Positions 6,460 through 32,660 of a stretch of DNA of 33,106 nt are shown here, in pieces. The stretch comes from Methanobacteriota archaeon (GTDB lineage: Archaea > Thermoplasmatota > Thermoplasmata > Methanomassiliicoccales > UBA472), in NCBI GenBank assembly GCA_012729095.1, contig JAAYDU010000023.1, forward strand, positions 1 through 33,106. Direction: 5' to 3'. The position numbers were made by a program, and so were the translations under genes. Below the pieces are notes generated by a model that made no database searches, was not told where the DNA came from, and was given only the letters and a program-made list of their open reading frames with translations. Within the stretch, counting starts at the first letter, position 1, and each line of letters begins with the position of its first letter.

Positions 6460-6470
6460 GACATCCCTCC

Positions 6471-8783: not shown

Positions 8784-8884
8784 TGTGATGAACTATGAAG
8801 CTTAATGGTTATTAGCCTTGTGCTGCTGGAGCGTTCTACAATAAACTAAGGGGTCTGGAAAAGGGTTTAGGAGCGTTCTCATCG

Positions 8885-9619
8885 TCACTTCAGGTCCAGC
8901 TCGGAACGGGGGTCGGGATGCTCGAAGATGCGGCACGGCGGCTGCTCCACGCTACCGGTCCTCAGCTTGGGATCCAGGCGCTCGCCGGTCACCATGTAAT
9001 AAACGTACTCGCCGATGTTGCAGGCGTGGTCGGCCACCCTCTCCATGTAGCGGGCGACAAGTATCAGGTCGATGCCGATGGTGATCTTCCGGGGGTCCTC
9101 CATCATGTACGTCAGGATCTCCCGGAATATGCTGTCGTAAAGGGCATCCACTGCATCGTCCCTCTCGTGCAGGTGCGACGCCTTCTCGGCGTCCCTCTGC
9201 AGGAACGAGTACACCGCGTCATCAACGATTCCGACCACGAGGCAGGACATGGTGCGCAGCGACTCGAAGCGCTTGAACGCTTTACCTTCCTCGAAATCGT
9301 CGATGAGTTCCGCGATGTCCGTCGCGTAGCGGCCGAAGCGGTTGAGGTCCTCCACCATCTTCAGGCAGGCGGATATCAGACGGAGATCGCCGGCCACCGG
9401 CGAATGCAGGGCGATGATGTCCAGGCAGTGCCGGTCGATCTGCTCGTTGAGCTGGTAGACGAGCTTGTCCAAGGCCCTGACCTCCTCGCGCAGGGAGAAG
9501 TCCATGTCGGTGATCATCTGCACCGACCTCTCGAAAGCTGTACGGGAGGCGTTGGCCATTTCGGTTATCTCCTTGCTCAGTTCCTCCATCTCGTGGTTGA
9601 ACGTGGTACGCGGCGTCAT
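8885..9619 (-). CDS. phoU: Phosphate transport system regulator PhoU
   Basis: PhoU is a cytoplasmic helical-bundle metalloprotein that restrains the Pst transporter and relays phosphate status. The 244-residue product has the two PhoU repeats, each a three-helix bundle. The first contains 'HSPVAGDLRLISACLKMVEDLNRFGRYATDIAEL' type signature and the second 'LILVARYMERVADHACNIGEYVYYMVTGE', both with the E/DxxxD metal-contact pattern. It is the last gene of the operon, its ATG overlapping the pstB stop by one base (TGATG), so it is translationally coupled. No PhoR/PhoB pair is present nearby. A second PhoU-type protein is encoded divergently at 13478-14485, so the two may have separate roles in transport inhibition and DNA binding. 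Confidence 0.95.
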   Translation of the reverse strand: MTPRTTFNHEMEELSKEITEMANASRTAFERSVQMITDMDFSLREEVRALDKLVYQLNEQIDRHCLDIIALHSPVAGDLRLISACLKMVEDLNRFGRYATDIAELIDDFEEGKAFKRFESLRTMSCLVVGIVDDAVYSFLQRDAEKASHLHERDDAVDALYDSIFREILTYMMEDPRKITIGIDLILVARYMERVADHACNIGEYVYYMVTGERLDPKLRTGSVEQPPCRIFEHPDPRSELDLK

Positions 9620-10410
9620 CAGCCCATCCTCCCGGTTATGTACTGCTCGGTTAGCTCCTTCTGCGGCCTCTCGAAGATCTGCTTGGTGTCACCCATCTCT
9701 ACCAGGTCGCCCAGGTAGAAGAAGGCCGTGCGGTCCGATATCCTCGCCGCCTGCTGCATGCTGTGCGTTACGATAACGACCGTGTAATCCTTCTTCAGGT
9801 CCACCAGCAGGTCCTCTATCTTCGCCGTGGCGATCGGATCGAGAGCGGAGCAGGGCTCGTCGAAGAGTATTATCTCAGGATTTACCGCTAGAGTCCGGGC
9901 GATGCACAGCCTCTGCTGCTGTCCGCCCGATAGTGACGTCCCGCTCTTGTCCAGGCGGTCCTTGACCTCGTCCCATAGGGCCGCCCTTTTCAATGAATGC
10001 TCGACGATCTCGTCCAGATCCTTCTTGGTGTGCTTGCGCCTACGCAACCTTCCGTCCGCCATTTCGGCGACCCCGTGCAAACGCGGCCCATACGCCACGT
10101 TCTCGTAGATGCTCTTGGGGAACGGGTTCGGCTTCTGGAATACCATGCCTATGCGCCGGCGGACGTTGACGACATCGATTTCATCATCGTTGATGTCCTC
10201 CCCGTCCACCATCACCTTCCCTTTCACCATGCAGCCGGGGATAAGGTCGTTCATGCGGTTGATGCAACGGATGAAAGTGGACTTGCCGCAGCCTGACGGG
10301 CCGATGACGGCGGTCACCCGGTTCATCTCGATGTCCATGCTCACGCCCTTGAGGGCGTGGTTCTTGTCGAAGTATACGTGAAGATCGTCTGTGCGAATAG
10401 CGGTCGTCAT
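9619..10410 (-). CDS. pstB: Phosphate ABC transporter ATP-binding protein PstB
   Basis: This ATPase powers high-affinity phosphate import. All ABC motifs are present in the 263 residues: Walker [10 protein letters not shown] (37-45), Q-loop VFQKPNPFP (Gln92), signature LSGGQQQRL (160-168), Walker B ILFDEP (181-186) and the switch histidine in VTHS (216). The '[16 protein letters not shown]' and CSALDP segments are specific for PstB. A short basic stretch ([10 protein letters not shown], 121-130) is an insertion relative to the shortest family members. Three bases separate its ATG from the pstA stop, and its own stop overlaps phoU, giving a tight operon. Confidence 0.97.
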
Positions 10411-10413
10411 TTG

Positions 10414-11271
10414 TTACCACCTGTACTTGTCGCGGTATCTTTTCCTAAGGACTATGGCTATGAGGTTCATCCCAAGCACCAGCAGCAACAGCACCAGTGC
10501 CGTGGCGTACTGTATCGGCCGGGTGGCCAGCAGGTCGGACGATTGCGTGGCCATGTAGAACACGTGATAGGGCAGGGCCATGAAGCTGTCGAAGAAGCTG
10601 TCCGGCAGGCGCTGCAGCGACATTGCCACGCCGGTGAGCATCAGCGGCGCCGTTTCGCCGGCGGCCCTGGAGACAGACAGTATTATGCCGGTGAATATGC
10701 CCGGAAGCGCGTACGGAAGCACGTGATGCCAGATGGTCTGCCATTTGGTGGCGCCAAGCGCGTACGACGCCTCTCGAACCGTGCTCGGCACCGCGGCTAT
10801 GGCCTCCCTGGCGGACGATATCATGAGCGGCAATGTCATAATGCTGAGCGTAAGGCCGGCCGAGATCAGGGAGAAACCGAGTCCGAGATAGGCTACGAAT
10901 ATCCCCAGGCCGAGCAGCCCGTAGACTATGGACGGAACGCCGGCCAGATTGTAGGCGGCCAGCTTGAACACCCGGCCCATCCAGGAGCTCTGCTCGTATT
11001 CCACCAGGTATACGGCGGACATGACGCCGATGGGGACGGATATCCCCAGCACGATGAGCATCAGGTAGAACGTGCCCACGATGGCCGGAAGTATACCGCC
11101 CTGCGTGTTGGCCCGGCGGGGCATCTCCGTGAGGAACTCGATGCTCAATCGTTCCAATCCGCCAGTGACTATGTACCCCAGCAGCACCACCAAGGCCAGG
11201 ACGACCAGCAGGGCGCATCCCCGGAACATTGTGAAGACCGCCACTTCGGTCGCCTTCCGGTTGAGCATCAT
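10414..11271 (-). CDS. pstA: Phosphate ABC transporter permease PstA
   Basis: This is one of the two membrane subunits of the phosphate importer. The 285-residue product has six predicted membrane helices and the cytoplasmic EAA loop (REASYALGATKWQTIWHHVLP) that docks onto PstB. The 'AAYNLAGVPSIVYGLLGLG' type segment is typical of PstA. The frame is open far upstream inside pstC, but ATG 11271 (or the adjacent ATG 11268) is chosen because it overlaps the pstC stop as TGATG and precedes the first helix. Order and overlap show co-translation with pstC and pstB. Confidence 0.95.
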   Translation of the reverse strand: MMLNRKATEVAVFTMFRGCALLVVLALVVLLGYIVTGGLERLSIEFLTEMPRRANTQGGILPAIVGTFYLMLIVLGISVPIGVMSAVYLVEYEQSSWMGRVFKLAAYNLAGVPSIVYGLLGLGIFVAYLGLGFSLISAGLTLSIMTLPLMISSAREAIAAVPSTVREASYALGATKWQTIWHHVLPYALPGIFTGIILSVSRAAGETAPLMLTGVAMSLQRLPDSFFDSFMALPYHVFYMATQSSDLLATRPIQYATALVLLLLVLGMNLIAIVLRKRYRDKYRW

Positions 11272-12197
11272 CAGTACTCCTCCCGGTAGCGCCTGGTCAC
11301 CCATTCGGCCAGGAAGTTGATGATGAAGGTGATGACGAACAGCACCAGCCCGACCAGGAACAGCACGTGATAGTGTTCGGAACCGAACTCCACCTCGCCG
11401 AAGTCTATGGCTATGGCCGCCGTCATCGTTTGCACCGATCGCAGGAGGTCGAAGTGCAGCGCGGTGGCGTTCCCGGTGGCCATGAGCACCGTCATCGTCT
11501 CGCCGACCGCCCTGCCGAAGGCCAGGACGATGGCGGCGACCACTCCCGACAGCGAAGCGGGAACGACCACGTGCCGGATGGTCTCCCACCGGGTAGCGCC
11601 CAGCGCCAGGGATGCCTCGCGAAGGCTGCAGGGCACCGCGTTCATAGCGTCCTCGGCCACGGTGACCATGATCGGGACCATCATCACCGCCAGCATTATC
11701 GCCCCGTTCAGGGCGTTCAATTTCGTCACGGGATCGAACACCACGGCTATCCATTCGGACAGGATGACCAGCGCGAAGAAGCCGAAGATGACCGAGGGAA
11801 TTCCGGCCAAGATCTCGATGGCCGGCTTGAATATCGCCTTAACGCGGGGGCTGGCCAGCTCCGCCAGCCAGATCGAGCACCCCAGCCCGACGGGTATGGC
11901 TATCAGCGCCGCGCCGAACGATACCATCAGGGTGCCGACGAAGAGCGGCAGTATCCCGTACAGCGGGTACATGGGGTGGGCGGGGTTCCACACCGTGCCG
12001 GTGAAGAAATCGATGATGTTTATGGAGGAGAACGCCGGCAGCGCGCCCAGAAGCAGCTCGCCGAACACGGCGGCCAACGCCACCACGGAGGACCATGTGG
12101 CCAGCCTCAGCGAAAGCTGTATCGCCTTCTCCCGGGGAGGCAGATGCTTGTTCTTGCGCAACCTGCGCCCTCCTTCCTTTCTCAACCTTAACGCCAC
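11271..12197 (-). CDS. pstC: Phosphate ABC transporter permease PstC
   Basis: This is the second membrane subunit of the Pst importer. The product has a basic cytoplasmic N terminus, about six membrane helices, the 'EILAGIPSVIFGFFALVIL' type segment and the EAA loop (LREASLALGATRWETIRHVV). Two GTG starts are possible. GTG 12206 (311 residues) lies only one base after the GGAG at 12208-12211. GTG 12197 (308 residues) lies ten bases from it, a workable spacing, so I prefer 12197. The gene follows pstS by about 71 bases that include a G-rich tract, the only real gap in the operon, so pstS may be expressed at a different level from pstCAB. Confidence 0.93.
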   Translation of the reverse strand: MALRLRKEGGRRLRKNKHLPPREKAIQLSLRLATWSSVVALAAVFGELLLGALPAFSSINIIDFFTGTVWNPAHPMYPLYGILPLFVGTLMVSFGAALIAIPVGLGCSIWLAELASPRVKAIFKPAIEILAGIPSVIFGFFALVILSEWIAVVFDPVTKLNALNGAIMLAVMMVPIMVTVAEDAMNAVPCSLREASLALGATRWETIRHVVVPASLSGVVAAIVLAFGRAVGETMTVLMATGNATALHFDLLRSVQTMTAAIAIDFGEVEFGSEHYHVLFLVGLVLFVITFIINFLAEWVTRRYREEY

Positions 12198-12234
12198 TCT
12201 ATCCACGCTCCTTTGGGTTTTGAAACGGTTTGAT

Positions 12235-12262
12235 GGGATTTGGGAAAAGGTTAGGGAAGGGG
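12235..12262 (+). promoter_or_regulatory. G-tract cluster between pstS and pstC
   Basis: Runs of G at 12235-12237, 12242-12244, 12254-12256 and 12259-12262 fit a four-tract quadruplex pattern on the plus strand, which is the template strand for pst transcription. The mRNA would carry the matching C-rich, unstructured segment. It may mark partial termination or processing after pstS; it could also be chance in a short gap. Confidence 0.3.
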
Positions 12263-12268
12263 TTTGGA

Positions 12269-13183
12269 TCAGCCCAGCTTGGCCCTCTCCTCGGCGATTA
12301 CCTCGGCCGAAAGGGGATAGAAGCCGACGTCCACCGCCACCTGCTGCCCCAGATCGGCGTCCAGTATCCAGCTCAGCCAGCGGCTGACCTGGTCCGTCGG
12401 GGTACCGTCGGTGTAGATGTAGAGGTACCTGGACAGGTCGTACTGGCCGGATTGAACGGCGTCGGCGTCCAGCGGCGAATAGGCCTCGGACGTCGAGTTC
12501 TTCTTCAGGTCCAGGACGTTGATGCCGGAAGCGGAGGCGTAACCGATGCCCACGTAACCTATTCCGCCCTCGTCGCCCTGCACCCCCGCCACGATAGCGG
12601 AGTTGCCGGAGAGCATGTTCATGTCCTGGGAGTAGTTCTCCTTCTGCAGGACGTGCTCCCAGAAGAACTCGTACGTGCCGGAGGTGGACTGGCGGCCATA
12701 GAGGGTGATGTCCTCGTTCGCACCGCCCACCTGGTTCCAGTTGGTTATGGTGCCGTTGTATATGCCGCGCAGCTGCTCGACGGTCAGGACGCCGATATCG
12801 TTCGAGGTGTGCACGATCACGGCGATGCCGTCTATGGCCACCTTGAACTCGACCGGGGTGAATCCCGCTGCCTGGGCGCTCTCTATCTCGCTCGACTTGA
12901 TCTGACGGGAGGCTTGCGCCACGTCCACCTGCCCGTTTATCAGGGCGGTGATGCCGGTGCTGCTTCCGCCGCCGGAGACCTCCACCTCAACGGCCGAGTT
13001 CTCGGCCATGTATTCCTCTGCCCATATCTGGCAGAGCTCAAGCAACGTATCGGACCCCTTCTGCACGATGACGCCGCCTTCGCCGTCGCCGTCATCGTCG
13101 CCCTGGAAGAGGAACACACCGACGGCGGCCACTATGATTATGGCCACTACGCCGATGACCAGGTACTTCATCTTGTTCTCCAT
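12269..13183 (-). CDS. pstS: Phosphate ABC transporter substrate-binding protein PstS
   Basis: This is the extracellular phosphate-binding component. The 304-residue product begins with a hydrophobic anchor (residues 6-23, YLVIGVVAIIIVAAVGVFLF) followed by an Asp/Gly-rich linker, so it is probably held by an uncleaved helix; there is no lipobox cysteine. The binding-protein core shows KGSDTLLEL, VSGGGSSTGI, DVAQASRQIK and YGRQSTSGTYEFF, the loops that contact phosphate in this family. The frame is open upstream, but ATG 13183 is chosen because AAAGGTGA lies just before it and the anchor follows. It is the first gene of pstSCAB-phoU, with a leader of roughly 136 bases from the predicted promoter. 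Confidence 0.95.
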   Translation of the reverse strand: MENKMKYLVIGVVAIIIVAAVGVFLFQGDDDGDGEGGVIVQKGSDTLLELCQIWAEEYMAENSAVEVEVSGGGSSTGITALINGQVDVAQASRQIKSSEIESAQAAGFTPVEFKVAIDGIAVIVHTSNDIGVLTVEQLRGIYNGTITNWNQVGGANEDITLYGRQSTSGTYEFFWEHVLQKENYSQDMNMLSGNSAIVAGVQGDEGGIGYVGIGYASASGINVLDLKKNSTSEAYSPLDADAVQSGQYDLSRYLYIYTDGTPTDQVSRWLSWILDADLGQQVAVDVGFYPLSAEVIAEERAKLG

Positions 13184-13319
13184 TCGTTCACCTTTGAAAT
13201 GTAAAGAAAGAACAGGGGGCCGCGGTCCAGTCATGCAGGACGAGAATAGGAGGATCGAGACGGCGTCTTACGCCGAGGTCCTTTCCTGTACCGGCAGGTC
13301 CTTTGTTCATTTTCTCCGG
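13184..13319 (-). promoter_or_regulatory. 5' leader of the pst operon with hairpin and direct repeats
   Basis: The predicted transcript start (near 13319) leaves about 136 untranslated bases. They include a perfect 6-bp hairpin with a three-base loop (CGGCGT at 13261-13266, ACGCCG at 13270-13275) and two exact copies of AGGTCCTTT (13276-13284 and 13296-13304; AAAGGACCT in the transcript) 20 bases apart. Regulation through this leader is possible but unproven. Confidence 0.4.
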
Positions 13320-13339
13320 AACGAGCTACCAAAAACGCC

Positions 13340-13440
13340 GTTTATATACATTGGCGAAATAGAATATATTCTTGTATTTTGTATATAGAATATGTATCAA
13401 TTAGAATTTTTAATATTTCTAGTAAGTTTTGTATATACAA
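13340..13440. promoter_or_regulatory. Divergent pst / AbrB-PhoU promoter region with repeated palindromes
   Basis: TTGTATATACAA at 13429-13440 is a perfect 12-bp palindrome and doubles as the TATA box for the regulator gene, predicting a start near 13460. An 11/12 copy lies exactly 50 bases away (13379-13390) and a weaker 9/12 copy (13340-13351) overlaps the minus-strand TATA box of the pst operon. A different perfect palindrome, AGAATATATTCT, is at 13361-13372. Sites coinciding with both TATA boxes suggest one regulator could switch both directions, the AbrB-PhoU protein being the obvious candidate. Confidence 0.55.
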
Positions 13441-13477
13441 TAACCACTTAAGTACGCTCGTGAAAAGGGATAGCGCC

Positions 13478-14485
13478 ATGAACACCGAGGTCCGCCGGGT
13501 TCAGAAGACCGGAGCGTCCACGTTGACCGTATCGCTGCCCAAAGACTGGGTCGATTCGTCCGGACTGAAGGCCGGGGACCAGGTCTCCATGGCCGTTCAG
13601 CTGGACGGGACGATACTGCTCGATACCAACATGGACCGCCGCAAGGAGACCCTGAAGAAGGAGATCTGGACGGATGTGGAGGAGAGCACGGAGCACCTCA
13701 CCCGCAAGCTGATAGGCGCTTATCTTGTCGGATACAACGTCATAGAGGTCCGCTCCAAGGGCCGCATGGAGCCGGATGCCAAGAGCGCCATCAGGGAGTT
13801 CTCGCGCCTGGCCATAGGCCCGGAGGTTGTGGAGGAGACAGCCAACAGCGTCCTCATGCACGACCTTTCGGACCCGGTGGAGCTGCCGCAGGAGAAGTGC
13901 GTCCGCCGCATGCATCTGATCGTGCGCACCATGCACGCTGACGCCATCGAGGCGCTGTGCGAGGAGGACAAGGGCCTGGCGGAGGACGTCATCGACCGCG
14001 ACACGGACGTGGACCGTTTGTACTGGATGGCGGTGAAGCAGAACACGCTCATCGCCAGGGACCGCAAGCTTGGGGACCGCATGGGCCTGGACATATTCGA
14101 GTCGAACGACCTGATGCTTGTCGCGCGCGGCATAGAGCGCATAGGCGATCACGCCGTACGAATATCCAGGAACGCCCTTTTGAGCGCGGAGGACGAGGAC
14201 AGGCTGCCCGAGGCCGGGGAGATAAGGAAGCTGAGCGCGGAGTCCATGCGCGTGCTGGAAATGGGAATGGACGCCCTTTTCCGGAAGGACGTGTCGGAGG
14301 CCAACCAGGTCATAGACGAAGGGCGGGACGTCGTCAAGCGCTGCGAGAAGCTCGGCCAGGGCGCCCGGATCAAGGACAGCCGGGAGGCCATAATCATCAA
14401 CATGGTCATGGACTCCATCATTCGCTCCACGATGTACGCCGTGGACATCGCCGAGATAGCGATAAACGGGGCGATGCGTCAGTGA
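13478..14485 (+). CDS. AbrB-PhoU phosphate-responsive transcriptional regulator
   Basis: The 335-residue product joins an N-terminal SpoVT/AbrB-type swapped-hairpin DNA-binding domain (residues 1-50, with STLTVSLPKDWV and GLKAGDQVSM) to a PhoU-like helical region. The latter includes 'LMLVARGIERIGDHAVRISRNALL' type signature near 210-235 and a closing IRSTMYAVDIAEIAING. Archaeal proteins of this architecture are thought to sense phosphate or metal through the PhoU bundle and bind DNA through AbrB. The frame is open upstream to 13379, but ATG 13478 has AAGGGA at a good distance and starts the AbrB domain. It is divergent from pstS and probably regulates it, and perhaps itself. Confident on domains, inferential on targets. 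Confidence 0.9.
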   Translation: MNTEVRRVQKTGASTLTVSLPKDWVDSSGLKAGDQVSMAVQLDGTILLDTNMDRRKETLKKEIWTDVEESTEHLTRKLIGAYLVGYNVIEVRSKGRMEPDAKSAIREFSRLAIGPEVVEETANSVLMHDLSDPVELPQEKCVRRMHLIVRTMHADAIEALCEEDKGLAEDVIDRDTDVDRLYWMAVKQNTLIARDRKLGDRMGLDIFESNDLMLVARGIERIGDHAVRISRNALLSAEDEDRLPEAGEIRKLSAESMRVLEMGMDALFRKDVSEANQVIDEGRDVVKRCEKLGQGARIKDSREAIIINMVMDSIIRSTMYAVDIAEIAINGAMRQ

Positions 14486-18210: not shown

Positions 18211-19251
18211 TCAGCTCGACATGCGGTAGCGCAGCAGAGCGGCCATACCGCCGAGCGCCTCCAGCTTCTTCCCGCCCTCGTGCATCTCGCTGACCACGGT
18301 GACCCGCCCCCGGGCCTCCTCCACGGAGCGCATGAGAGCCTCAACATCCCTCTCCCGCACCATGGAGTCCAGTATCAGAAGCTGCTCCACCGCCCCGGCG
18401 TTCACGGCCTCCCGCACCTCCCTGGGGCCGTAGGTCGCCAGGCCGTCCGTGCCCACCTGTTCCAGGAGCTTTTCCACTAGCTCCGTCTCCTCGGCGACGC
18501 GGGAATCCTTGAGCACCTCCGCGCCCATTCCCCGCTTCATCAGCTCCTGAATGCCGTTCATGCCCGATTGCCCGGTATGGTAGAGGAAGGCCTTGGAGAA
18601 CATCTCCGGCTCCCTCTCCTTTCCCTTGGCCAGCAGGGTCTCCTTGGCGAAGCCGGGGCCGAGCACCATTATTGGCACGCCGGGAGAGTGCGCCTGCTTG
18701 GCCTTGGCGATCACCTCGCCGTAGTAATCGCCCTCCTCCTTGGTGGCGTACATCTTGCCGTGACCGCCGGATGAGATGTCCGCCAGGCGTTTCACACCGA
18801 ACTGGCGCATAGCGGCCACAGTCGCCTCGTCGTCGTCAAGTGCGATGAAGAGCACGCTGGGCTTTTTGGAGTCCTCCACCGCCCGGCGCACGCGGTCGAG
18901 CTGGGACGGCCTCCACTGCTGCTTCACCACCGACAGCACCTCCCCCTCCTCCATGATCAGGGTGTGATGGGAGCCTACGTCCTGCGGCCCTTCCTCTATG
19001 ACGCCGAGCAGGCGCAGCCGGTTGTCGAACTCCCCGAACTCCACCTTTTCGAGACGGATGCCGAGCGTCATCCTCTTCTTCTCGCCCCTCTCCGCCCTTA
19101 TCTTGTCGGATTTCGCCTCCTCCCGGCGGTACGTCGAGGCGAACACCAGGTCCCCCGGGGTCAGGATGTTGTAGAGATGCCAGAGGTCGTCCGGCACCTC
19201 CACCTGCATCTTTATCTCCCCCTTGAAGCGGTCCTGGTGCAGCACCTTCAT
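18211..19251 (-). CDS. pelA: Archaeal pelota (mRNA surveillance and ribosome rescue factor)
   Basis: Pelota enters the A site of stalled ribosomes and, with archaeal EF1A and ABCE1, splits them. The 346-residue product has the Sm-like N-terminal domain (residues 1-130, starting MKVLHQDRFKGEIKMQVE, with DDLWHLYNILTPGDLV). The central and C-terminal eRF1-like domains follow (VLFIALDDDEATVAAMRQFG onward, then LATYGPREVREAVNAGAVEQLLILDS). The GGQ tripeptide of release factors is absent, as expected. The frame is open 62 codons further upstream, but ATG 19251 is chosen because it starts the conserved domain and lies 28 bases from the CCATAAATG TATA box (19275-19283), giving a leaderless message. 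It is divergent from carA. Confidence 0.93.
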   Translation of the reverse strand: MKVLHQDRFKGEIKMQVEVPDDLWHLYNILTPGDLVFASTYRREEAKSDKIRAERGEKKRMTLGIRLEKVEFGEFDNRLRLLGVIEEGPQDVGSHHTLIMEEGEVLSVVKQQWRPSQLDRVRRAVEDSKKPSVLFIALDDDEATVAAMRQFGVKRLADISSGGHGKMYATKEEGDYYGEVIAKAKQAHSPGVPIMVLGPGFAKETLLAKGKEREPEMFSKAFLYHTGQSGMNGIQELMKRGMGAEVLKDSRVAEETELVEKLLEQVGTDGLATYGPREVREAVNAGAVEQLLILDSMVRERDVEALMRSVEEARGRVTVVSEMHEGGKKLEALGGMAALLRYRMSS

Positions 19252-19430
19252 GGCGGCCGTGATGCCCATCCGGGCATTTATGGTTGTCCCAATGCGTCCG
19301 AAATCGGACAAAAAACGCGGTGAACATTCGTAAATGCGTACGAGCTGTTGACAGCCAGACAAAAGGGTTCCAGCCAGGTTTGGGAACTCAGTAAGCATTA
19401 AGTATGCAATAACTCTACCGTGAAATTCTG
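19252..19430. promoter_or_regulatory. Divergent pelA-carA promoter region
   Basis: The minus-strand TATA box CCATAAATG (19275-19283) serves pelA. The plus-strand element TTAAGTATG (about 19399-19407) lies some 28 bases before the carA ATG. Both predicted transcripts would be leaderless, and no ribosome-binding site precedes either start. Nothing else is evident between them. Confidence 0.5.
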
Positions 19431-20507
19431 ATGGCAAAGTGCTTCCTGGTTCTCGAGGACGGGACTGTGATGGAGGGCACCGGTTTTGGTCATCTGGGCG
19501 ACACCTCGGGAGAGGTTGTCTTCAGCACCGGGATGGGAGGGTACCAGGAAAGCCTGACCGACCCCTCGTTCCGCGGCCAGATACTGACGATGTCCTATCC
19601 TCTCATCGGCAATTATGGAGTTAACCCCAACGATGTGGAGTCGGACCGGGTGCAGGTCAGCGGCTTTGTGGTGAGGGAGCTGTGCGACTTTCCCACCACG
19701 GGATACGGAGGAAAGCTCCTTGAACCTTATATGAGGGAGAACGGGATACCCGGCATCGCCGGGGTGGACACCCGCTCCCTAATAATCAAGATCAGGAACG
19801 CGGGCACCCTGAAAGGGGCCATAGTCCACGACGACCCCCAGGGGGCGCTGGAAAGGGTTAGGGAAATGCCCCACCCGGCGGAGAGCAACCTGGTCGGGGA
19901 GGTCAGCACCAAGGAGGTGCGCCACTTCCCAAAGCCCGGCGCCAAGAGGGTGGCCGTCTTCGACTGCGGGGTAAAGCTCAGCATAATGAAGGAGCTGACC
20001 AGGCGCTTCGAGGTGTACCAGCTGCCCTACGACACCGGCGTGAAGTTCTTCCGGGACCATGGGATCGACGGCATTTTCCTGACCAACGGCCCCGGCGATC
20101 CCTCTCACCCTTCCATCAAAGACACCGTGGTCTCCACCCTGCGCAAGGTCAGGGACGACTACCCCATGATGGGCATATGCATGGGCAATCACCTGGTATG
20201 CCAGGCCTTCGGGGGAACCACCTACAAGCTGAAGTTCGGCCACCGGGGAGAGAACCAGCCGGTGCGGTTCAAGGACCGCATATACATCACGTCGCAGAAC
20301 CACGGGTACGCCGGGGACCCTCAGAGCCTGGAGGGGTCCGGCCTGGAGATAGACCAGGTGAACGTGAACGATGGCACGGTGGAGGGGCTGCGCCACAGGG
20401 AATTGCCAATATTCTCCGTGCAGTACCATCCCGAGGCCTGTCCCGGACCTAGGGACACCGCATTCCTGTTCGACGACTTCGCTAAGATGCTGGAGGCGAG
20501 CAGGTGA
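19431..20507 (+). CDS. carA: Carbamoyl-phosphate synthase small (glutaminase) subunit
   Basis: CarA hydrolyses glutamine and passes ammonia to CarB for carbamoyl phosphate, the entry to pyrimidine and arginine synthesis. The 358-residue product has the N-terminal CPSase small domain (GEVVFSTGMGGYQESLTDPS at 27-46) and a class I glutamine amidotransferase domain. Its triad is Cys250 (GICMGN), His333 and Glu335 (QYHPEACPGP). The nucleophile loop reads GICMGNHLV, where bacterial enzymes have GICLGHQ; the catalytic cysteine is retained. ATG 19431 appears leaderless. The stop overlaps the carB start by four bases (GTGA), giving coupled equimolar translation. Confidence 0.97.
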   Translation: MAKCFLVLEDGTVMEGTGFGHLGDTSGEVVFSTGMGGYQESLTDPSFRGQILTMSYPLIGNYGVNPNDVESDRVQVSGFVVRELCDFPTTGYGGKLLEPYMRENGIPGIAGVDTRSLIIKIRNAGTLKGAIVHDDPQGALERVREMPHPAESNLVGEVSTKEVRHFPKPGAKRVAVFDCGVKLSIMKELTRRFEVYQLPYDTGVKFFRDHGIDGIFLTNGPGDPSHPSIKDTVVSTLRKVRDDYPMMGICMGNHLVCQAFGGTTYKLKFGHRGENQPVRFKDRIYITSQNHGYAGDPQSLEGSGLEIDQVNVNDGTVEGLRHRELPIFSVQYHPEACPGPRDTAFLFDDFAKMLEASR

Positions 20508-23500
20508 GCAAGGGCAAGCTGCTGGTCATAGGCTCCGGGCCCATCGTCATCGGGCAAGCGGCGGAATTCGACTTCTCCGGATCGCAGGCCTGCCGCTCCC
20601 TGCGCGAGGAGGGCTATACCACCGTCCTCGTGAACTCGAACCCGGCCACCATACAGACGGACCTTGAGATGGCCGACATCGTTTACATCGAACCGCTCAA
20701 CGTGGAGACCATCGCCGAGATAATCAAGAAGGAGAAGGTGGAGGGGGTGCTCTCCGGAATGGGCGGCCAGACCGCCCTGAACCTGTGCTCGGAGCTTGCG
20801 GAGAAGGGTTACCTGGAAAGGCTTGGTTGCCGCCTTCTCGGCACTCAGCCGGAGGCCATCGCCCTTTCCGAGGACAGGGAGCTGTTCAGGGACACCATGA
20901 TCAAGATCGGCGAGCCCATCCCGCGCAGCGTCACCGTCACCAGCATCGATGAGGCAAAGAAGGCCGTGGAGGAAGTGGGGGGCTACCCGGTACTTATCCG
21001 TCCCGCCTATACCCTGGGGGGAACGGGAGGGGGCGTCGCCTACAACGATGAGGAGCTCGTTCCGATAACCGGCCGCGGGTTGATCTACTCGCGCATACGC
21101 CAGGTGCTGATAGAGGAGAGCGTGCTGGGCTGGAAGGAGCTGGAGTACGAGGTCATGCGGGACCGCAAGGACAACTGCGTGGTCATATGCACCATGGAGA
21201 ACGTGGACGCCATGGGCATACACACCGGCGAGAGCATAGTGGTCGCTCCAATCCAAACGCTGAACGACGAGGACTACCAGCTGATGCGCACCGCCTCCAT
21301 CAAGATCATACGTGCGCTGGGGATAGAGGGCGGCTGCAACGTGCAGTTCGCCTACAATCCCGCCAACCGGGAGTACCGGGTGATAGAGGTGAACCCCCGG
21401 GTCTCCCGCTCCTCCGCCCTGGCCTCGAAAGCCACCGGCTACCCCATCGCCAGGGTGGCGGCCAAGATAGCCGTCGGGAAGACGCTGGACGAGATACCCA
21501 ACAAGATAACCGGAATGACCTACGCGGCCTTCGAGCCCACCATCGATTACGTGGTGGCCAAGGTCCCCCGATGGCCCTTTGACAAGTTCCGCACCGTGGA
21601 GACCAAGATCGGAACGCAGATGAAGAGCACCGGGGAGGTGATGTCCATCGGCCGCACCATCGAGGAATCGCTGATGAAGGCCGTTTGCTCGCTGGAAACG
21701 GACCGCATAGACCTCGAGCCGGAGATTTGGGACGACGAGGAGCTGGAGGAGGAGCTCAGGGTTCCCTCCGACAAGCGCCTTTACGCCATAGCGGAGGCGG
21801 TGCGCCGCGAGATGCCCGTAGACGTCATCGCCGACCTCACCAAGTGGGACGCGTTCTTCGTGCACAAGGTAAAGAACATCGTCAACATGGAGCGCGAGCT
21901 GGCGGCCGGGCCGCTCACCCCGGACCTCATACGCAAGGCCAAGCGCATGGGGTTCCAGGACGAGAGCATCGCCAAGTTCTCCAAGAGGACCGAGGCTTCC
22001 ATAAGCCAGGCCAGGCGGGAGAACGGGATATTGCCGACGTACAAGATGGTGGACACCTGCGCCGCCGAGTTCGCCGCCCAGACCCCTTACTTCTACTCCA
22101 CCTACGGAACTGAGTGCGAGGTGCCTCCGTCCGACAACAAAAAGGTCATAATAGTCGGCGCCGGGCCGATACGTATCGGCCAGGGAATAGAGTTCGACTA
22201 CTGCTGCGTGCACGGGGTCATGGCCTGCCAGGCCGCCGGGGTGGACGCGGTGGTAATAAACAACAACCCGGAGACCGTCTCCACCGATTACGACATCTCC
22301 GACCGGCTCTACTTCGAGCCCCTGACGCTGGAGGACGTTCTGAACGTCATCGAGAAGGAGGACGCTGACGGCGTGATATTGCAGTTCGGCGGGCAGACCT
22401 CGGTGAACCTCGCGGTGCCCCTGGAGCAGGCGCTCAAGGGCAGCAAGTGCAAGGTGCTCGGAACGTCCCCGGACATGATGGACATGGCCGAGGACCGCAA
22501 GCGCTGGTCCGCGCTCATGCATCGATTGGACATCGCCCAGCCGGAATCGGGCACCGGGCATTCCTACGAGGAGGTGAAGGCGCACGCGGACCGCATCGGC
22601 TACCCGGTGCTGCTTCGCCCGTCCTACGTGCTGGGCGGACGGGGCATGGAGATCGTTTATTCCGAGGAGGAGCTGAAGCAGTACGTGGCGACCGCGGTGA
22701 AGGTATCCAAGAAGCATCCCGTGCTGATCGATAAGTATCTGACGCACGCCAGGGAGCTGGACGTGGACGTGGTCTGCGACGGCAGGGACGTCCTCATCGG
22801 CGGCATCATGGAACACATCGAGGAGGCCGGGGTGCACTCGGGCGATGCCACCATGGTATTGCCTTGCCAGACCATCTCCCCCAAGGTCATGGAGAGGGTC
22901 ATCGAGATCACCAACGAGGTGGCGCTGGCGCTGCAGATCAAGGGCTGCATGAACCTTCAGCTGGCGGTGAAGGACGACGAGGTGTACATGCTGGAGGCGA
23001 ACCCGAGGGCGTCTCGCACCGTCCCGTTCATATCCAAGGCCATCGGCGTTCCGCTGGCGAAACTGGCCACCAAGGTCATGCTGGGCGAGACGCTGAAGGA
23101 CCTCGGCCATGTCGGCGTGGCCAAGTTCGATCACGTCGCCGTGAAAGCATCCGTCTTCCCGTTCCTGAAGCTGGTCGGCGTGGACTCCATACTGGGCCCG
23201 GAGATGAAGAGCACCGGGGAAGTGATGGGCATCGACAAGAACTATGGCGCCGCTATGTACAAGGCGATGGTGTCCGCGGGCAACAAGTTGCCTATGCAGG
23301 GCGGCGTCTACGTCACGGTATCGGACGCGGACAAGCCGGAGATACTCCCGCTGGTCAAGGACCTGCACGAGATGGGCTTCGCCATCTACGCCACGAAGGG
23401 CACGTCCACCCACCTGCGCAACAACGGCGTTCCGGCGACCACCGTCTACAAGGTCGCGGAGAACGTGTCGCCCGATGCCTTGGGCCTGCTGCGCCGCGGG

Positions 23501-23695
23501 GAGATCAACCTGATCATCAACACCCCCACGAATTCATCCGGATCACGCCGCGACGGGTACATGATGAGGCGCCTGGCCGTCGAGCTGGAGATCCCTTTCC
23601 TTACCACCGTTCATGGCGCCAAAGCCACCGTCTGCGCGATACAGCGCGCCCGGCAGGGCGATCTCGAGGTCAGGGACATCGGGTCCTACCATTGA
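20504..23695 (+). CDS. carB: Carbamoyl-phosphate synthase large subunit
   Basis: CarB makes carbamoyl phosphate from bicarbonate, ammonia and two ATP. At 1063 residues it is full length. Two homologous ATP-grasp halves are visible, the first with 'GSGPIVIGQAAEFDFSGSQA' and RPAYTLGGTGGG, the second with GAGPIRIGQGIEFDYC and RPSYVLGGRGME. An oligomerisation region lies between them and a C-terminal MGS-like allosteric domain (about 935-1063) contains YATKGTSTHLR and NTPT. It starts at GTG 20504, overlapping carA. There is no frameshift or stop over 3.2 kb, a useful contrast with the damaged accessory genes nearby. Confidence 0.98.
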   Translation: MSKGKLLVIGSGPIVIGQAAEFDFSGSQACRSLREEGYTTVLVNSNPATIQTDLEMADIVYIEPLNVETIAEIIKKEKVEGVLSGMGGQTALNLCSELAEKGYLERLGCRLLGTQPEAIALSEDRELFRDTMIKIGEPIPRSVTVTSIDEAKKAVEEVGGYPVLIRPAYTLGGTGGGVAYNDEELVPITGRGLIYSRIRQVLIEESVLGWKELEYEVMRDRKDNCVVICTMENVDAMGIHTGESIVVAPIQTLNDEDYQLMRTASIKIIRALGIEGGCNVQFAYNPANREYRVIEVNPRVSRSSALASKATGYPIARVAAKIAVGKTLDEIPNKITGMTYAAFEPTIDYVVAKVPRWPFDKFRTVETKIGTQMKSTGEVMSIGRTIEESLMKAVCSLETDRIDLEPEIWDDEELEEELRVPSDKRLYAIAEAVRREMPVDVIADLTKWDAFFVHKVKNIVNMERELAAGPLTPDLIRKAKRMGFQDESIAKFSKRTEASISQARRENGILPTYKMVDTCAAEFAAQTPYFYSTYGTECEVPPSDNKKVIIVGAGPIRIGQGIEFDYCCVHGVMACQAAGVDAVVINNNPETVSTDYDISDRLYFEPLTLEDVLNVIEKEDADGVILQFGGQTSVNLAVPLEQALKGSKCKVLGTSPDMMDMAEDRKRWSALMHRLDIAQPESGTGHSYEEVKAHADRIGYPVLLRPSYVLGGRGMEIVYSEEELKQYVATAVKVSKKHPVLIDKYLTHARELDVDVVCDGRDVLIGGIMEHIEEAGVHSGDATMVLPCQTISPKVMERVIEITNEVALALQIKGCMNLQLAVKDDEVYMLEANPRASRTVPFISKAIGVPLAKLATKVMLGETLKDLGHVGVAKFDHVAVKASVFPFLKLVGVDSILGPEMKSTGEVMGIDKNYGAAMYKAMVSAGNKLPMQGGVYVTVSDADKPEILPLVKDLHEMGFAIYATKGTSTHLRNNGVPATTVYKVAENVSPDALGLLRRGEINLIINTPTNSSGSRRDGYMMRRLAVELEIPFLTTVHGAKATVCAIQRARQGDLEVRDIGSYH

Positions 23696-23790: not shown

Positions 23791-26700
23791 ATGTCGAGTG
23801 GAAGAGCTGTAGCTGTAGGAGTTCTAGGTTTCTTAGGATTGCTTTTGATCGCATTGATCCTCTTTTCGGGGAACGCGTCCGCGGCGGACAGCGGTCCGCT
23901 GGAGTACGTGGGGGACGGCGATCTGGAGCAGGCGGTCGTCGATCTGGAATGCACCGGCAGCGGGACGGAGACGGACCCGTATGTCTTCGCGAACTACACC
24001 ATAGATTGCGCGGGGTTCGGATATGGCATATCCCTTATGGACACCACGAGCTACGTGGAGATCGTCAATTGCACGTTCTCCAACGCCGCCTATATCACCC
24101 CGTCGGCCAGGGGGGCCGGAGTGAGCCTGGACAACTGCTCCAACGTTTCCGTGATCGACTGTACCTTCATCAGCTGCGATTGCGGCATCTGGGCCAGCCT
24201 GTCCGACGGATGCGAGTTCACGGACAACGACCTTTCATCGACGATCGATAGAGGAATCTTCATCGATGGTTGCAGCGCCATGCTAACCTCCCGCAACTTA
24301 AAGGACGCTTCGTGGACGATGATGGGGTCGGCCGTGTACGTAGGCAGTTCACAATACGTGACCATTAACGATACGGTGGTGGAGGGCTGCTTTAAATCGA
24401 TCATCCTCGTGGATTCCAGTTACATCATCATCAACGGTTCCACGCTTACGGGCGCTGACCAATACGGCATCGATGCCACCGGCTGCCATGATGTCACAGT
24501 ATCCTGGACGGAGATCGGAGAGGTGACCAACGCCTGCCTCCGCTTCGTCACCTGCGCTCACGTTCACGTGCATAACGGCTCATTCCACGATTCCATTGAC
24601 AATGGCATTGAGGCCCACGACAGCGATATGGTCGTGATAGAGGACAGTCTGATCAACAATACCGACACAGACACGCCCAGCAACGGGTTCGGCATCGCTT
24701 TCTACAATGTCGGCAACTGTTCCGTACAGAGGAATACCTGCACCAACAACACCAATTTTGCGATCTTATTCATTGGATGCAACAACTGCAGCGTGATCGG
24801 TAATGTCATGCACAACGTGTCCAACGGCATCCAGCTCTACACGGTCCAGGGTGCGCTGGTCCAAGAAAATGTCGTCCATACGAAATATGGCATGGGCATC
24901 TATCTTTACGATTGCGATGCCGCGAATGTCATCGGAAATGAGGTCATCGGCGAAACGGAACTGACGAACTGGGGGATCGGCCTCATCACCTGCCGGGATG
25001 GCGTACTGACGGATAACGCGATCTCGGGAACGCTGCCCCACGGCATATATGTCGACGGAGGAACGGCCAACGAGATCTCCGGGAACATCATGGAGAACAC
25101 CATGGAGAGCACCGGCTCGTACGGAATGTACCTACAGGGCGCGGGACCTGCGGAGGTCGTTAACAACACTGTCTAGGGGAGCGTTGAATACGGGCTCTAC
25201 GCCACCGATTCGTACGCCCTCAACATTTCCGGGAACGTCATGGAATGGTTAACCTACGGAATGTGGCTGGATTACTCGTATGATGTTCTGATCGAGGGAA
25301 ACAGCGTAGATCATAGCGCGACGCGGGGGATCTACCTGTCGTATGGTGGTGGGGAGCTTCAACCCATGTCCATTGTGAACAACAGCTGCCGGTACTCCGG
25401 CACGGGAATTATGCTCAGCCAGATTTCTTTCACTGTTCTGGAGAACAACGATTGCAACGATTGTTCGAACGGAATAGCCCTCCTTTCCTCAATGGCGACC
25501 TACATCGGGAACTGCACCGCCGACCGTTGCGAACAGGGGCTTCTTTTGACCGGGAGCGATGGCTCCACCGTCATCGGAGGAAGCTATTGCCAATCCCTCA
25601 TTAACGGGATCTATCTGAGCGGCTCGGATTCCGTAAGAATCGAGGGGGTCAACGCGTCTGGAAATGGAAACTGCGGGCTGTGCCTGAGCAATTCCATATA
25701 CGGATATGTCATCAACTCGACCTTCTCTGGGAACACCAGAGGCGTGCAGGTTGACCTGGACGAATCGCACCATCAGCCGTTCTACATGATGGGCTGCCGA
25801 CTGGAGAACAATACGGCGTATGGCATGTACAGTGATGGCGGGTGGCTGGTCAACGTAAAAGGCAACCACCTGGCCAACAACCTCGACTACGCCATGTACC
25901 TGCTGGGAACGAGCGATGACTGGTACATACACAACAACACCTTCCTCAACAACCGCGGGATCGTGGGCTTGAACGAACTGGCCGTCCAATGTTACGACCT
26001 GGGTACGAACAATAGATGGTACGTGCACGAGGGGGACCGCAACTGGGGCAACGGCTGGAGCCACCTGCCCAACCTGGACGTCAACGAGGACGGTTACGTG
26101 GACTACCAGGTCCGCATAGGCGGATCTGGGGATTATTACCGGTATCAGCTTCCCTACGGCCCCAAGATCGAGGGGGCTTCCGCTCCGACCGACCTCTCCT
26201 TTGAGCTAACGCCATACTACATCGACCTGAACTGGACCGCCCCCGAGTCGCTGGGCAACTCCACTCTGGTTGGCTACCTGGTGTATATGGGGGTAGTTCC
26301 AGACATAATGAGCATGTCGGAGGCCGGTCAGACCTCCGGCGAGCTGGAATGCACCGTGATGAGCATGCTGGAGAACGGCAACACGTACTATTTCGCGGTG
26401 GCCGGTTTCAACGAGTACGGCATGATGGGAGATCATTCGAGCATCTTGGAGGTGCACTATCAGCCGTACCCGCCCGCGAACTCCGCGCCCATCGCCATCC
26501 ACAGCGACCAGGAGTTCGCCGATGCCGCAGCCTACTACGGCTGGGAAGGGGACGGAAGTTTCGTGGACCCCTATGTCATCGACGACCTGACCATTGACGG
26601 CCAGATGTTCGGGTATTGTTTGCAGATATGGAACACCGAATCGCATTTCGTGGTCCGCAACTGCACCTTCTACATGGGAGTGACCCTAGCATACGGGAAG

Positions 26701-29700
26701 GCGGTTGACCTGCAGGACGTTTACAATGGCCACTTCGAAGAATGCACGTTCCTGGGGGACATGGATAGAGGATTGAGCCTGATCACCGGGCAGATCGATG
26801 TTGTCGACTGCCTGTTCGACGGGCCGATGCTCTATGGCCTTTTCGTTTCCGACTGTATCGTGGCCGTATCGGACTGCACCTTCAATTCCTCGTACTGTGG
26901 ATTGAACATTGAGTCCTCGATGTATATCATGGCAGAGAGGGACCTTTTCCTGAATTGCAGCAGCGCCATCATCATCTGGAACACTGACTCCGCGGTGGTT
27001 CGCGACAACGAGATCCATGGCGGCAACGCCATTCAGATCGCGGGTTCCAGCGATTGCCTGGTGGAGAACAACCTAGGCGTGGGGGTATACGAGTTCTTCT
27101 ACTCGTCCCAGTCAAACTGGGTGACCCTGCGCGATAACACCGCGAACGGTACGATGATGTCCAGGGGCGCCTACTCCTCGTTCGGCGCGGCGGTGCTGTT
27201 CGAGAACAACACCTTCAGCGGGTTCGATACGGGAATGCAGGGTTATGGCACTCTAGATCTCGCCATGAGGAACAACACCCTGTTCGAGAACAGGATCGGC
27301 ATACGACTGGAACAGGTGATCACCGGGGATGTTTCTGGCAACATCATCCGCGACAGCCTGGAACACGGATTGGAGGTCCGTCGGAGCAACGAGGATGTGC
27401 TGGTCACCCTGAACTCCTTCACCGATAACCTGGGATTCGCCATAAGTTGCGAGGTGGAGCTGAGCTCGGCCACCATCTACCTCAACCACTTCCAGGGGAA
27501 CAACCTGAACGACGGCACATTCACCTATGAGACCGCGCAGGCCAGGGACCTCTATGGCATCCTCTATTGGGAGCTGGACGGACTGGGCAATCACTGGGCC
27601 GATTGGACCTCGCCCGACGCGGACGGCGACGGGATCGTGGACGAACCGTACATTTGGGACGATTTCCCGCTGGTCCACCCCTTCGGGGCGCCGACCGGAC
27701 TGGACCGCACGGTCGGACCGGACTTCGTCAACCTTAGCTGGAGCGGACTTAACTATGACTTCAGCGAGGGCGTGGATGGCTACCGCGTCTATCGCGGATT
27801 GTCGCCTGAGGACCTGGAGTTCATCGGATCGACCGGGAACATGTGGTACAACGATACCTCGGTCGCGTTGGGAACGACCTATTACTATCGCGTCTCCGCC
27901 TACGTCGGTGCGGAGGAGGGCGCGCTGAGCTATCTCATCTCCGCCATCCCCTGTGATGTTCCGGGGGCTCCGACCGAACTTCTGGTCGTCGCGGACCTGC
28001 GTTCCTTCCATCTGTCGTGGACCGCCCCATCGGACAACGGCGGGTCCCTCATACTGGGATACAACATATGGAGAGGGGCATCGCCTACCTCGCTGGACCT
28101 CTTCGATGTCACGGGGACGGTCACCTACACCGACCTTCTGGTAGGTGACGGTGAGACCTGGTACTACGCGGTGACGGCCTTCAACCAGGCCGGGGACGGA
28201 GCGATGTCCGACGTGATGGGCAACACCACCTTCAGCGTTCCCTCCGCACCTTTGAGCGTCACCACCCAGTTCGGGAACGGCAACGTCACCGTGTTCTGGA
28301 GCGCGCCTCTGGACGACGGCGGAACGCCGATAACCGGCTACGTCATCGAATACGTGCACGCGCTGATCGGCCAGTTCGTCCATCCCGGAGCGGACGACCG
28401 TTCCTGGACGATGACCGGCCTGACCAACGGTTGGGAGTATTCCTTCCGGGTTCAGGCCGTGAACATGGTGGGCGACGGCGACTGGTCGCCGCTGGTGTAC
28501 GACACGCCGGCCAGCGAGCCCGAAGCCCCGGTGGACCTGGAGGCGAGCCCCGCTAGCGGCACCGTGCGGCTGTCCTGGCTGCCCCCGACCGAGGATGGCG
28601 GTGACACTCCGTCCCTGTACAACATCTACCGCATGGAGCTGGACGGGGAATGGGGCTGGATCGGCAACAGCACCGTCCTAATGTACGAAGATAACACCGT
28701 CATCGACGGCGTGGTCTACTTCTATCAGGTGAGCGCTGTGAACAAGGCCGGAGAGGGCGGGGCGAGCGAGCCGGTCAGGGCCTTGCCCGGCCTGCCTTCC
28801 GCGCCGATCGACCTTGTGGCAGCCAACTCCGACGGCCGAGCACAGCTGAACTGGACCGCTCCTGCCGACAATGGCGGTTCGGACATCTTGGGGTACAAGG
28901 TCTATCGCAGCACCGGTTCTGGGTACACCTTCCTGGGTACTGTCGGTTCCGATTCGCTCGGCTACCGGGACGGTACCGCCACCCCCGGAACCGAATATCG
29001 CTACCAGGTGAGCGCCGTGACCGCCAAGGGAGAGGGGCCCCTTTCCAACGAGGCGATCATCACCTTGCCCTTGGTTCCCCCTGAAGCACCGGTCATAGAT
29101 TCCGCGGTGCAGGGGACCGCTGGAGCTCTCATCGTCTGGCACGTGCCGGAGAGCTCCACCGTTCCGGACGAGTTCCTGGTCTACCGTGGAACGGCGACCG
29201 ATCCGTTGGCGCTCATCGCCATCATCGAAGGCGGCGCCAGCGAGTATCTGGACGTGGCCGGAACTGCCGGCATGTTATACGCCCTGCGGTCATCGAACGA
29301 ATACGGGGTCGGGGATATGAGCGACGTGTTCCAAGCGACACTGGGCATCGTTCTGCCGCCGGAAGCCCCGCATGGACTGACGGCGATCGCCGGCGATTCC
29401 CTGGTAACATTGAGCTGGACCTCTTCCGAAGGGGCGGTCGGTTACCACGTCTACCGGGACAACGGGACCGGTTACCTTCTGCTGTCTGCGACCTCTGGAA
29501 CGGAATTCACTGATGGTGAGGTGGTCAACGGAGTCGCCTGCTCATACCGCGTCGCCGCCTTCAACGACGGCGGGGAGAGCGGCAATTCCACGACCATACT
29601 GGCCACCCCGGGAACCGTCCCGGGAGCGGTGCAGAACCTTGCCCTGATCGAAGGCGAGGCCATAGTTACCCTGAACTGGGAACCCCCGACGGACGACGGC

Positions 29701-31152
29701 GGTTCTGCCGTGCTGGGATACCGTGTGTTCCGCGACCTGAACGGAACGGTGGCAATGCTGGCCATGGTCAACGCCATGACCTATACCGACCACAGCGTGG
29801 TCAGCGGGCTCCAGCACAGCTATTGGATAGTGGCGCTCAACGCCTGGGGACCCGGTCCCGAGTCGGTTCGCGTGAACGTCACGCCGGACGAGATCACGGT
29901 GACCGGACTGCCCGCCCCTTCCTATCTACTGGCCGAGGTCGGCAATGGTACGGTGACCCTTAACTGGGATGCCATGACCTCCTTCCACGTTGACGGCTTC
30001 AGGGTGTTCCGCAACGACGGCGGGAACTTCACCCTCCTTGCCGACCAGGCCGGTTCGTCGTACCTTGACGCGGGACTGGTGAACGGAGCGACGTACACCT
30101 ACCGGGTGCACTGCTACATCGGCATGTCGGACGGAGAGAACGCTTCTGTCGAGGCGATGCCGGGAACGGCGCCCGGGGCGCCTGCGTTGAGCGGAACGAC
30201 CGCGGTGGACCGCGTGACCCTGAGCTGGACCGTTCCGGCCAACGGCGGCTCGCCGGTCATCGGTTACCGCCTCTATCGCACGCCGGGCACCGGCACCAGG
30301 GTGCTGCTGGCCTCCCTGACAGACACGACATACGTGGACCTCGGCGTTCTGGCGGGCGTGAACTACACCTACATGGTGACCGCGCTCAACGCCTTCGGGG
30401 AGGGCGCCCCGTCCAACACCGTCCTGCTGAGCACCGACCAGCAAGCCTCGCCCAGCATCGACTTCCCCTCGGAGCCGTACCTCAGCTCGGCCACCGGCGG
30501 CAACTCCAGCGTTTCATTGGTCTGGACCGCCCCGATCGACCCTGGTGACGGCCTGATCGTCAGCTACAACGTGTATCGCGGGACCAATCCGCTGATCGTG
30601 TACCTCCTGGCCTCCGTACCAGCGGGGACCACCGCTTACGTGGACTCCACGGCCGTTTACGGCACGACGTACTACTACTGCGTCTCCGCCCTCAATCTGT
30701 GGGGGGAAGGCGAGATCTCCAGGGTGCTCGCCGCGTCCCTGGTGGCCCTGGCCGCCCCGGGAGAGGTGGACGTTGACGTGGAGGAAGGACAGGGGAGGAT
30801 CACCCTGTCCTGGTCCGTGCCTGACGACCAGGGAAGCTCGTCCGTCACCGGGTACAACATCTACCGGCGCGGGGAGACCGGCGACCGGCAGCTCATAGCG
30901 ACGGTGCCGGCGGGAACGGACACCTTCGTGGACGGGTCGGTGGAGGCCGGGGAGGAGTACGACTATTGGGTCACGGCGGTGAACGCGGCCGGAGAGGGAC
31001 CGCTCGCCGACGCCCCGGCGTCCGGCGTGCCCTTGGCCGTGATCGCTGGCGAGGCCGAGATAGGTCCGCTGCCGACGATCGCCTTGGCGCTAGGTGCCAT
31101 CGGCCTGCTGGTTGCGGTGGTCGCCGTGGTCCTAGTGCTCCGCAAGAGGTAG
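23791..31152 (+). CDS. Giant secreted beta-helix/fibronectin type III surface protein, interrupted by an in-frame TAG
   Basis: One frame of 2,453 codons encodes an adhesin-like surface protein, probably for attachment or polysaccharide contact. It has a signal peptide (about 1-32, ending NASAAD) and a first block of right-handed parallel beta-helix (PbH1/NosD-like) repeats to about 790. One fibronectin type III domain follows (about 797-890), then a second beta-helix block (about 895-1300) closing with the acidic DADGDGIVDEPY motif, about twelve tandem fibronectin domains (1301-2415), and a C-terminal membrane helix ending LVLRKR. Codon 462 is TAG (25174-25176) inside the first beta-helix; the frame and repeat pattern continue directly after it. 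The first ATG after the TAG, at 25240, has no signal peptide. A TATA-like element (ATAAATTA) lies near 23731-23738 and a T6 run follows the final TAG at 31174-31179. Without readthrough only a 461-residue secreted fragment would be made. Confidence 0.82.
25174..25176 (+). other. In-frame TAG codon in the giant surface protein gene
   Basis: The codon sits in the context VVNNTV-TAG-GSVEYGLYATD, in the middle of a beta-helix repeat. The same frame runs on for another 1,991 codons. A CAG (Gln) to TAG transition is the simplest explanation. Pyrrolysine insertion is the alternative if the organism encodes Pyl, as Methanomassiliicoccales do. Confidence 0.75.
27690..31040 (+). repeat. Twelve tandem fibronectin type III-like repeats
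   Basis: About twelve domains of roughly 93 residues follow each other. Each opens with an AP-x-x-L type linker, then a V-x-L-x-W-x-x-P strand, GY-x-V/I-YR, and a YxYxVxAxNxxGEG strand. The copies are divergent in DNA, so this is an old expansion rather than a recent one. They probably form a long stalk between the beta-helix head and the membrane anchor. Confidence 0.8.
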
Positions 31153-31214
31153 GCCAAACCTCTTTCCATTACTTTTTTATTCAAGACCGTTCAGTGCCTG
31201 ACCATCAGATGATC

Positions 31215-32660
31215 TCAGCAAGAGAGCAGAAGCCATTCCCGAGGGACCATGGCCACTCTTTCCTCGTCGTCGAACCTGAGGGTGCCTTTTCCAACAGATA
31301 CCCCGTAGATCGCCCCTGCATCGCCCATGGTCGAAAAGGCCTGCTTGGTTCCCTTTCTTCCGAATCCCACCTCCAGAGCTACCCTGGAACCGTCCCCCCT
31401 GGTTATTACGAAGCCTGCGCCTGCCGCCTTCGGATCGAAATCGAAACGACGCAAGTTGCCGTCCAACGAGGCCCTGCGCATGGCCAGGACGGTCGCGTCC
31501 TCGAAAAGAAGTCCAAAGTCGGCATTGTCGCTTCCCAAACGACCCAGCTGGGCGAGAACCGCCGCACGCATGGCCGGGGATGTGAATCGATAGAGCGGAG
31601 TTCGCCTCAGACGGGTGGATTCCGGTCCGAACGGCATTACCCGATGGATGACGTCCGCCTTCTCCAAGCCTTCCAGGACCGATGACAGCGTCACGCGGTT
31701 GATGCCCAGGTTGGTAGAGAGGGATTGCTGACTGAGTCGGTCCCCGAACGCCAGGTAGCTAAGGAGGTTGGACGCTTTGATCAACGTCGGACGGTCCACC
31801 TGGCGTTGGGCCAATAGGTCCCGTTCTAGTACCCGGTCGATGGTGGAAGAGATCAGGGACATGGCGGTGGTCTCGTCATCTATCCCGAGAACGTACGGCA
31901 AAGAACCTTTTCGCAGGTACCTTTCCAGAGAATATGGTTCTATGTTGATGGCCACCGCCGATAGAGAGACCTCGATATCGAGCAATCCTTTCTTCAATGC
32001 CTCATACCCCATTGAAGAATAGAGCAGATGACCAAGTTTGCGGGATAGGTCCCTCGAAAGGTCCGCCTTCCTCTCCAACTTGAGGAACTCCCGATAAGAG
32101 AGAGGAAGAACGTTCATCTCTAAAGCCCTCTGGGCGGTGTCCGCATTGCCGCTGAGAGCAAGGGCCGAAGAACCGGTGACCATGACGAAAACGTTCTCCG
32201 TCCGGTCGTGGAGGCTCTTGATGGCCAATGGCCAAGAGGGATCGAAATGCGCCTCGTCGATGAATATGTACACATCCTTTCTAAGAGACTCGAAGGCCGT
32301 GCCGATGATCCTTTCGTATGCGGTAAGCGCATCGTTCAAGGATGCGCCAAGCCTGAGCTGAAGATCGTCCAGGCTGAGATATAGCATGTCCTCCATCGGT
32401 ACGCCCATCGCCTTGAGACGATCGAACGTCTGGGCCAGCATCGTGGTCTTTCCCACTCCCCGGAGACCGGGCAGAACCAGCCATCTCACCTGTCACCTTC
32501 CGGACCGGAAGTTGTCAATGAGCGTGAATGTTCGGGCAAGATCGTCCCTTTGCTCCAGCCGTTCTCCGGAGCGCTCGAAGACCTTTTGCCCCAATCGGTC
32601 TTCGGCCCTGCCTATGGACTCAATGATGTAACCTGAGATCGGTTCTTCCTTGGTCAACAT
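31215..32660 (-). pseudogene. AAA_14/DUF4143-type ATPase with an in-frame TGA near its N terminus
   Basis: The family joins a P-loop ATPase to a C-terminal domain with a winged helix; roles are mostly unknown and many copies lie in mobile or defence-rich regions. Visible are LPGLRGVGKTT (Walker A, codons about 63-73), VYIFIDEAH (Walker B, about 130-138), the sensor VMVTGSSAL, and a C-terminal part with LLSYLAFGDRLSQQSLSTNL and a restriction-nuclease-like VALEVGFGRKG. The leaderless-looking ATG is at 32660, about 27 bases from TTTAATAG (32683-32690). Codon 56 is TGA (32493-32495), just before Q-V-RWLVLPGLRG. A restart at GTG 32489, with AGGTGA three bases upstream, could still give a 424-residue protein with Walker A. 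It is therefore damaged or split into a 55-codon ORF plus ATPase. Confidence 0.7.

Follow-up and report, generated by a model that had tools for sequence, protein, structure and literature searches.

A gene for an accessory cell-surface protein, in a methanogen that lacks pyrrolysine (Pyl), has most likely been broken by a recent nonsense mutation; the lesion is known from a metagenome consensus. The window analysed is a stretch of 33,106 nucleotides (contig JAAYDU010000023.1), in which the forward-strand frame 23791-31152 translates into 461 residues, a TAG at codon 462, 1,991 further residues, and a terminal TAG (Table 1). No further stop and no frameshift was found on translation of this frame, whereas the other two forward frames of the interval contain 106 and 48 stops. 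Pfam placed Beta_helix/NosD repeats on either side of the premature TAG and fn3 repeats downstream of it, and the third-position GC is steady across the site (0.74 before, 0.80 after). Residues 231-700 were modelled with AlphaFold, using glutamine to stand in for the TAG and an alignment that contained one orthologue. The result is a single continuous beta-solenoid (mean pLDDT 88, pTM 0.87), whose strand 230-233 has the TAG residue (model position 232) close to its end. These results, together with uninterrupted orthologues in two relatives, establish that 23791-31152 is one gene, broken only by the TAG at 25174-25176. The sequence-only reading had claimed that frame and repeat homology continue directly past this codon, and translation, Pfam, orthologues, and AlphaFold all bear it out.

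Table 1. Features of the broken gene and its neighbours in the window.
Feature	Position	Strand	Remark
carA, carbamoyl-phosphate synthase small chain	19431..20507	+	syntenic neighbour
carB, carbamoyl-phosphate synthase large chain	20504..23695	+	directly upstream of the gene here, in UBA472, and in G005
N-terminal part of the broken gene, 461 aa	23791..25173	+	signal peptide (MSSGRAVAVGVLGFLGLLLIALILFSGNASA), followed by the initial ~430 residues of a parallel beta-helix
Premature in-frame TAG, codon 462	25174..25176	+	near the end of a beta-strand, mid-solenoid
Downstream open part, 1,991 codons	25177..31149	+	remainder of the beta-helix, second NosD-type helix, fibronectin-III repeats, C-terminal transmembrane anchor ending RKR
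Natural terminator, TAG	31150..31152	+	directly after the membrane anchor
AAA_14/DUF4143 ATPase	31215..32489	-	next gene downstream

The encoded protein has an adhesin-like architecture, with a signal peptide, beta-helix, FN3 repeats, and membrane anchor, of which the signal peptide and the hydrophobic C-terminal anchor with its RKR were judged by eye from the translated sequence. Proteins with beta-helices and FN3 domains are counted as adhesion factors in Methanomassiliicoccales and occur more often in free-living members than in host-associated ones (PMC7883539). The present gene has both kinds of repeat in common with these adhesin-like proteins; however, it combines the two classes in one frame and is broken by a stop, and its annotation as a putative adhesin is by analogy (PMC7883539).

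The host genome comprises 1.68 Mb in 72 contigs, with a completeness of 99.44% and a contamination of 0.32%. A match of 936 bits shows that it encodes methyl-coenzyme M reductase, and the carB beside the surface-protein gene shares 91% identity with its counterpart in Methanomassiliicoccaceae archaeon UBA472. It follows that the host is a methanogen within the Methanomassiliicoccales and shares its genus with UBA472; the earlier guess at this order was correct. UBA472, whose sequence is carried by genome G003, is closely related to MALP, a genome of the Lake Pavin cluster in which the pyrrolysine methyltransferases, operon, synthetase, and tRNA are all missing (PMC6147122). The AAA_14/DUF4143 ATPase is 86% identical and in the same position in UBA472, and it also adjoins a short version of the surface protein gene in a third relative, G008.

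Uninterrupted orthologues from the same genus were found in G005 (2,455 aa) and UBA472 (about 2,352 aa), each lying immediately after carB and aligning straight across the premature TAG. The residue at this column is Glu in G005 and Gly in UBA472; TAG is not conserved. The sister-genome comparison suggested in the sequence-only reading thus returned sense codons, as expected of a nonsense mutation, but the relatives lend no support to the CAG-to-TAG route proposed there, having no Gln at this place. Across their first 900 residues the orthologues share 41-45% identity. Identity drops to about 0.29 for residues 251-500, within the beta-helix, and climbs to 0.82 towards the C-terminal end; judged by these alignments, the premature TAG thus sits within one of the fastest-changing parts of the gene. 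The version in G008 has 651 aa; it includes a signal peptide and FN3 repeats but lacks the beta-helix. In this frame, on contig C43, the FN3 repeats of the C-terminal part follow the signal peptide without a change of frame and the whole beta-helix, about codons 52-1844, is missing, which represents either a real deletion or a collapsed repeat assembly. Other members of the genus gave weak partial matches only, and in several relatives carB is followed by different genes; the surface protein thus appears to be accessory and patchily kept in the genus, and its loss is therefore probably tolerated.

The gene has intact orthologues at the same place in UBA472 and G005, and TAG is a normal terminator, as in a nonsense pseudogene. 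Among random single-base changes in the coding sequence, 3.4% would create a stop, half of these being TAG. The absence of a further stop over the 5,973 nt downstream of the TAG limits the neutral substitutions since inactivation to at most about 88 (1.5%), a rough 95% bound from the rule of three that frameshifts would tighten, and the lesion is thus young, or not real. We propose that release factor would terminate translation in the ordinary way at codon 462, that the product would be a secreted half-solenoid of 461 residues without FN3 repeats or anchor, possibly degraded, and that display on the cell would be lost; the 1,991 downstream codons would have stayed intact because the time since inactivation was too short for decay.

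A lesion that is not real would be an assembly or consensus artefact, the population carrying mostly a sense codon and the TAG being a minority variant or a metagenome consensus error. The distribution of the genome over 72 contigs and its origin as a consensus are in keeping with this, as are the presence of just one lesion in 7.4 kb and a downstream frame that is preserved throughout. However, the completeness of 99.4% and contamination of 0.3% suggest good coverage, and single-base errors are uncommon in consensus sequences. We therefore rank the artefact below the nonsense mutation, as an unlikely explanation that nevertheless carries some weight.

Reversible switching of the surface protein, either phase-variable or at the level of the population, had also been offered as an option. 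Surface proteins are often targets of such switching, and this gene shows gain, loss, or shortening among members of the genus, but neither a hypermutable repeat nor an invertible element was found at 25174: simple-sequence tract, inverted repeat, and tandem array are all absent from the site. The nearest tandem array (25083-25113, with a 12-nt unit) is in frame and did not create the TAG, and a point stop is no known switching device, so we regard on/off switching as very unlikely.

Decoding of the TAG as pyrrolysine or another residue, which would make the product an extracellular Pyl-containing adhesin, deserved attention since the order includes Pyl users and two genomes of the same genus (G001 and G006) have the full system, with an in-frame TAG in mtmB. 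However, every pyl component tested was absent from the host genome. The best match to pylS scored 38 bits against a cut-off of 178, which was passed by 60 of the 101 genomes searched, and the best match to pylB scored 21 bits against 348; pylD was likewise absent, the test of pylBCD having covered pylB and pylD. The clients mttB and mtmB were not found in the host genome either. As a positive control, one genome exceeded the cut-off for each of pylS, pylB, pylD, mttB, and mtmB (Methanosarcina acetivorans for the last two). A search for tRNA-Pyl with model R1 returned a best match of 34.9 bits at C70:10353, which is a tRNA-Gly(ccc), whereas true tRNA-Pyl in the genus score 53-91 bits. None of the 39 tRNAs found, an incomplete list (e.g., no Trp, Tyr, Cys, or His), has the CUA anticodon that reads UAG. 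By comparison, pylS, pylD, tRNA-Pyl, and mtmB co-occur in 6 of 21 compared genomes (G001, G006, G011, G026, G027, and G029), and the mtmB genes of all six show the expected in-frame TAG. Because G001 and G006 belong to the genus of the host, it is unlikely that pyl genes were missed through divergence, and a chance loss of all components from a 99.4%-complete assembly is also unlikely. The pyrrolysine option of the sequence-only reading thus fails by the refuting condition set there, through the absence of pylS, pylB, pylD, and tRNA-Pyl.

The use of TAG elsewhere also argues against its decoding. The orthologues reside in Pyl-less species, pylS being absent from G005 and UBA472, and they have unlike residues at the TAG column. 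The natural terminator is TAG in the gene and in the three relatives examined (G005, UBA472, and G008), and efficient decoding of TAG would therefore read through the gene's own terminator as well, extending the protein to the first in-frame TGA beyond it, at 31210. Among the family-supported genes of the window, 2 of 18 end in TAG, one being the broken gene itself; this corrects the earlier count of about 5 in 25, but its point that TAG is a normal stop stands. We consequently give a Pyl-containing adhesin hardly any credence.

Readthrough of the TAG at a useful frequency without a Pyl system, by a near-cognate tRNA or weak termination, is similarly improbable; if true, one gene would give a secreted, unattached half-solenoid plus small amounts of the full-length, anchored form. 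No RNA structure that would promote readthrough was found 3' of the TAG beyond chance (z -0.20). A gene at 18211-19437 (-) was considered as an altered aRF1 and rejected: it has eRF1 domains 1 and 3, a sub-threshold domain 2, and no GGQ. It is an aPelota-like gene that overlaps the start of carA on the opposite strand. A search for the alpha-tmRNA family gave no match, though this family is unsuited to the TAG question. Two separate genes, a secreted beta-helix of 461 residues and a downstream protein starting at ATG 25240, are scarcely credible, since the ORF at 25240 exists but lacks a signal peptide, the orthologues are fused in both sister species, and the AlphaFold solenoid is continuous through the break.

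With pyrrolysine rejected, sense codons in the sister genomes, and phase variation without a basis in the sequence, the plain nonsense mutation, another option of the sequence-only reading, is the one that remains after the pyl, sister-codon, and repeat checks. The case itself is most likely an ordinary gene-breaking mutation, and its main use is to dispose of a false lead: unless a Methanomassiliicoccales genome contains pyl genes, an in-frame TAG there does not count as evidence of pyrrolysine. The Pyl-containing MtmB and MttB of relatives, which carry a TAG in genomes with pylS and tRNA-Pyl, resemble the present gene in that the frame stays open past a single in-frame TAG; however, the present gene encodes a surface protein and not an enzyme, its genome lacks pyl genes, and the codon is not conserved. 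Another parallel is 'Ca. M. alvus', where the Pyl system is complete and just 1.6% of genes end in TAG, and in which additional Pyl proteins were predicted from TAG-interrupted genes, half of them with TAG-free homologues (PMC4153887). A TAG-interrupted gene is common to both, but the present genome lacks the Pyl system and uses TAG as an ordinary stop.

The genome comparison also revealed that Pyl is patchy within one genus, pylS and pylD being present in 2 of 10 genomes (G001 and G006) and absent from the others. G001 (contigs C70 and C28) and G006 (contig C16) each carry two tRNA-Pyl and two mtmB genes with an in-frame TAG, and the mtmB at C28:2615-3964 of G001 has a TAA inside as well. This patchiness is relevant to the timing of Pyl gain or loss in the order, and to the published inference that the absence of Pyl from the Lake Pavin cluster is ancestral.

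Elsewhere in the window, a phosphate-uptake cluster at 8313-14485 comprises PhoU, an ABC ATPase, two permeases, a binding protein, and a PhoU protein with a MazE/AbrB-type DNA-binding domain. At 5797-7244 (-), a DUF4276 protein lies beside an AAA_21 ATPase, with third-position GC below that of the neighbouring genes; this is possibly an acquired defence-type pair.
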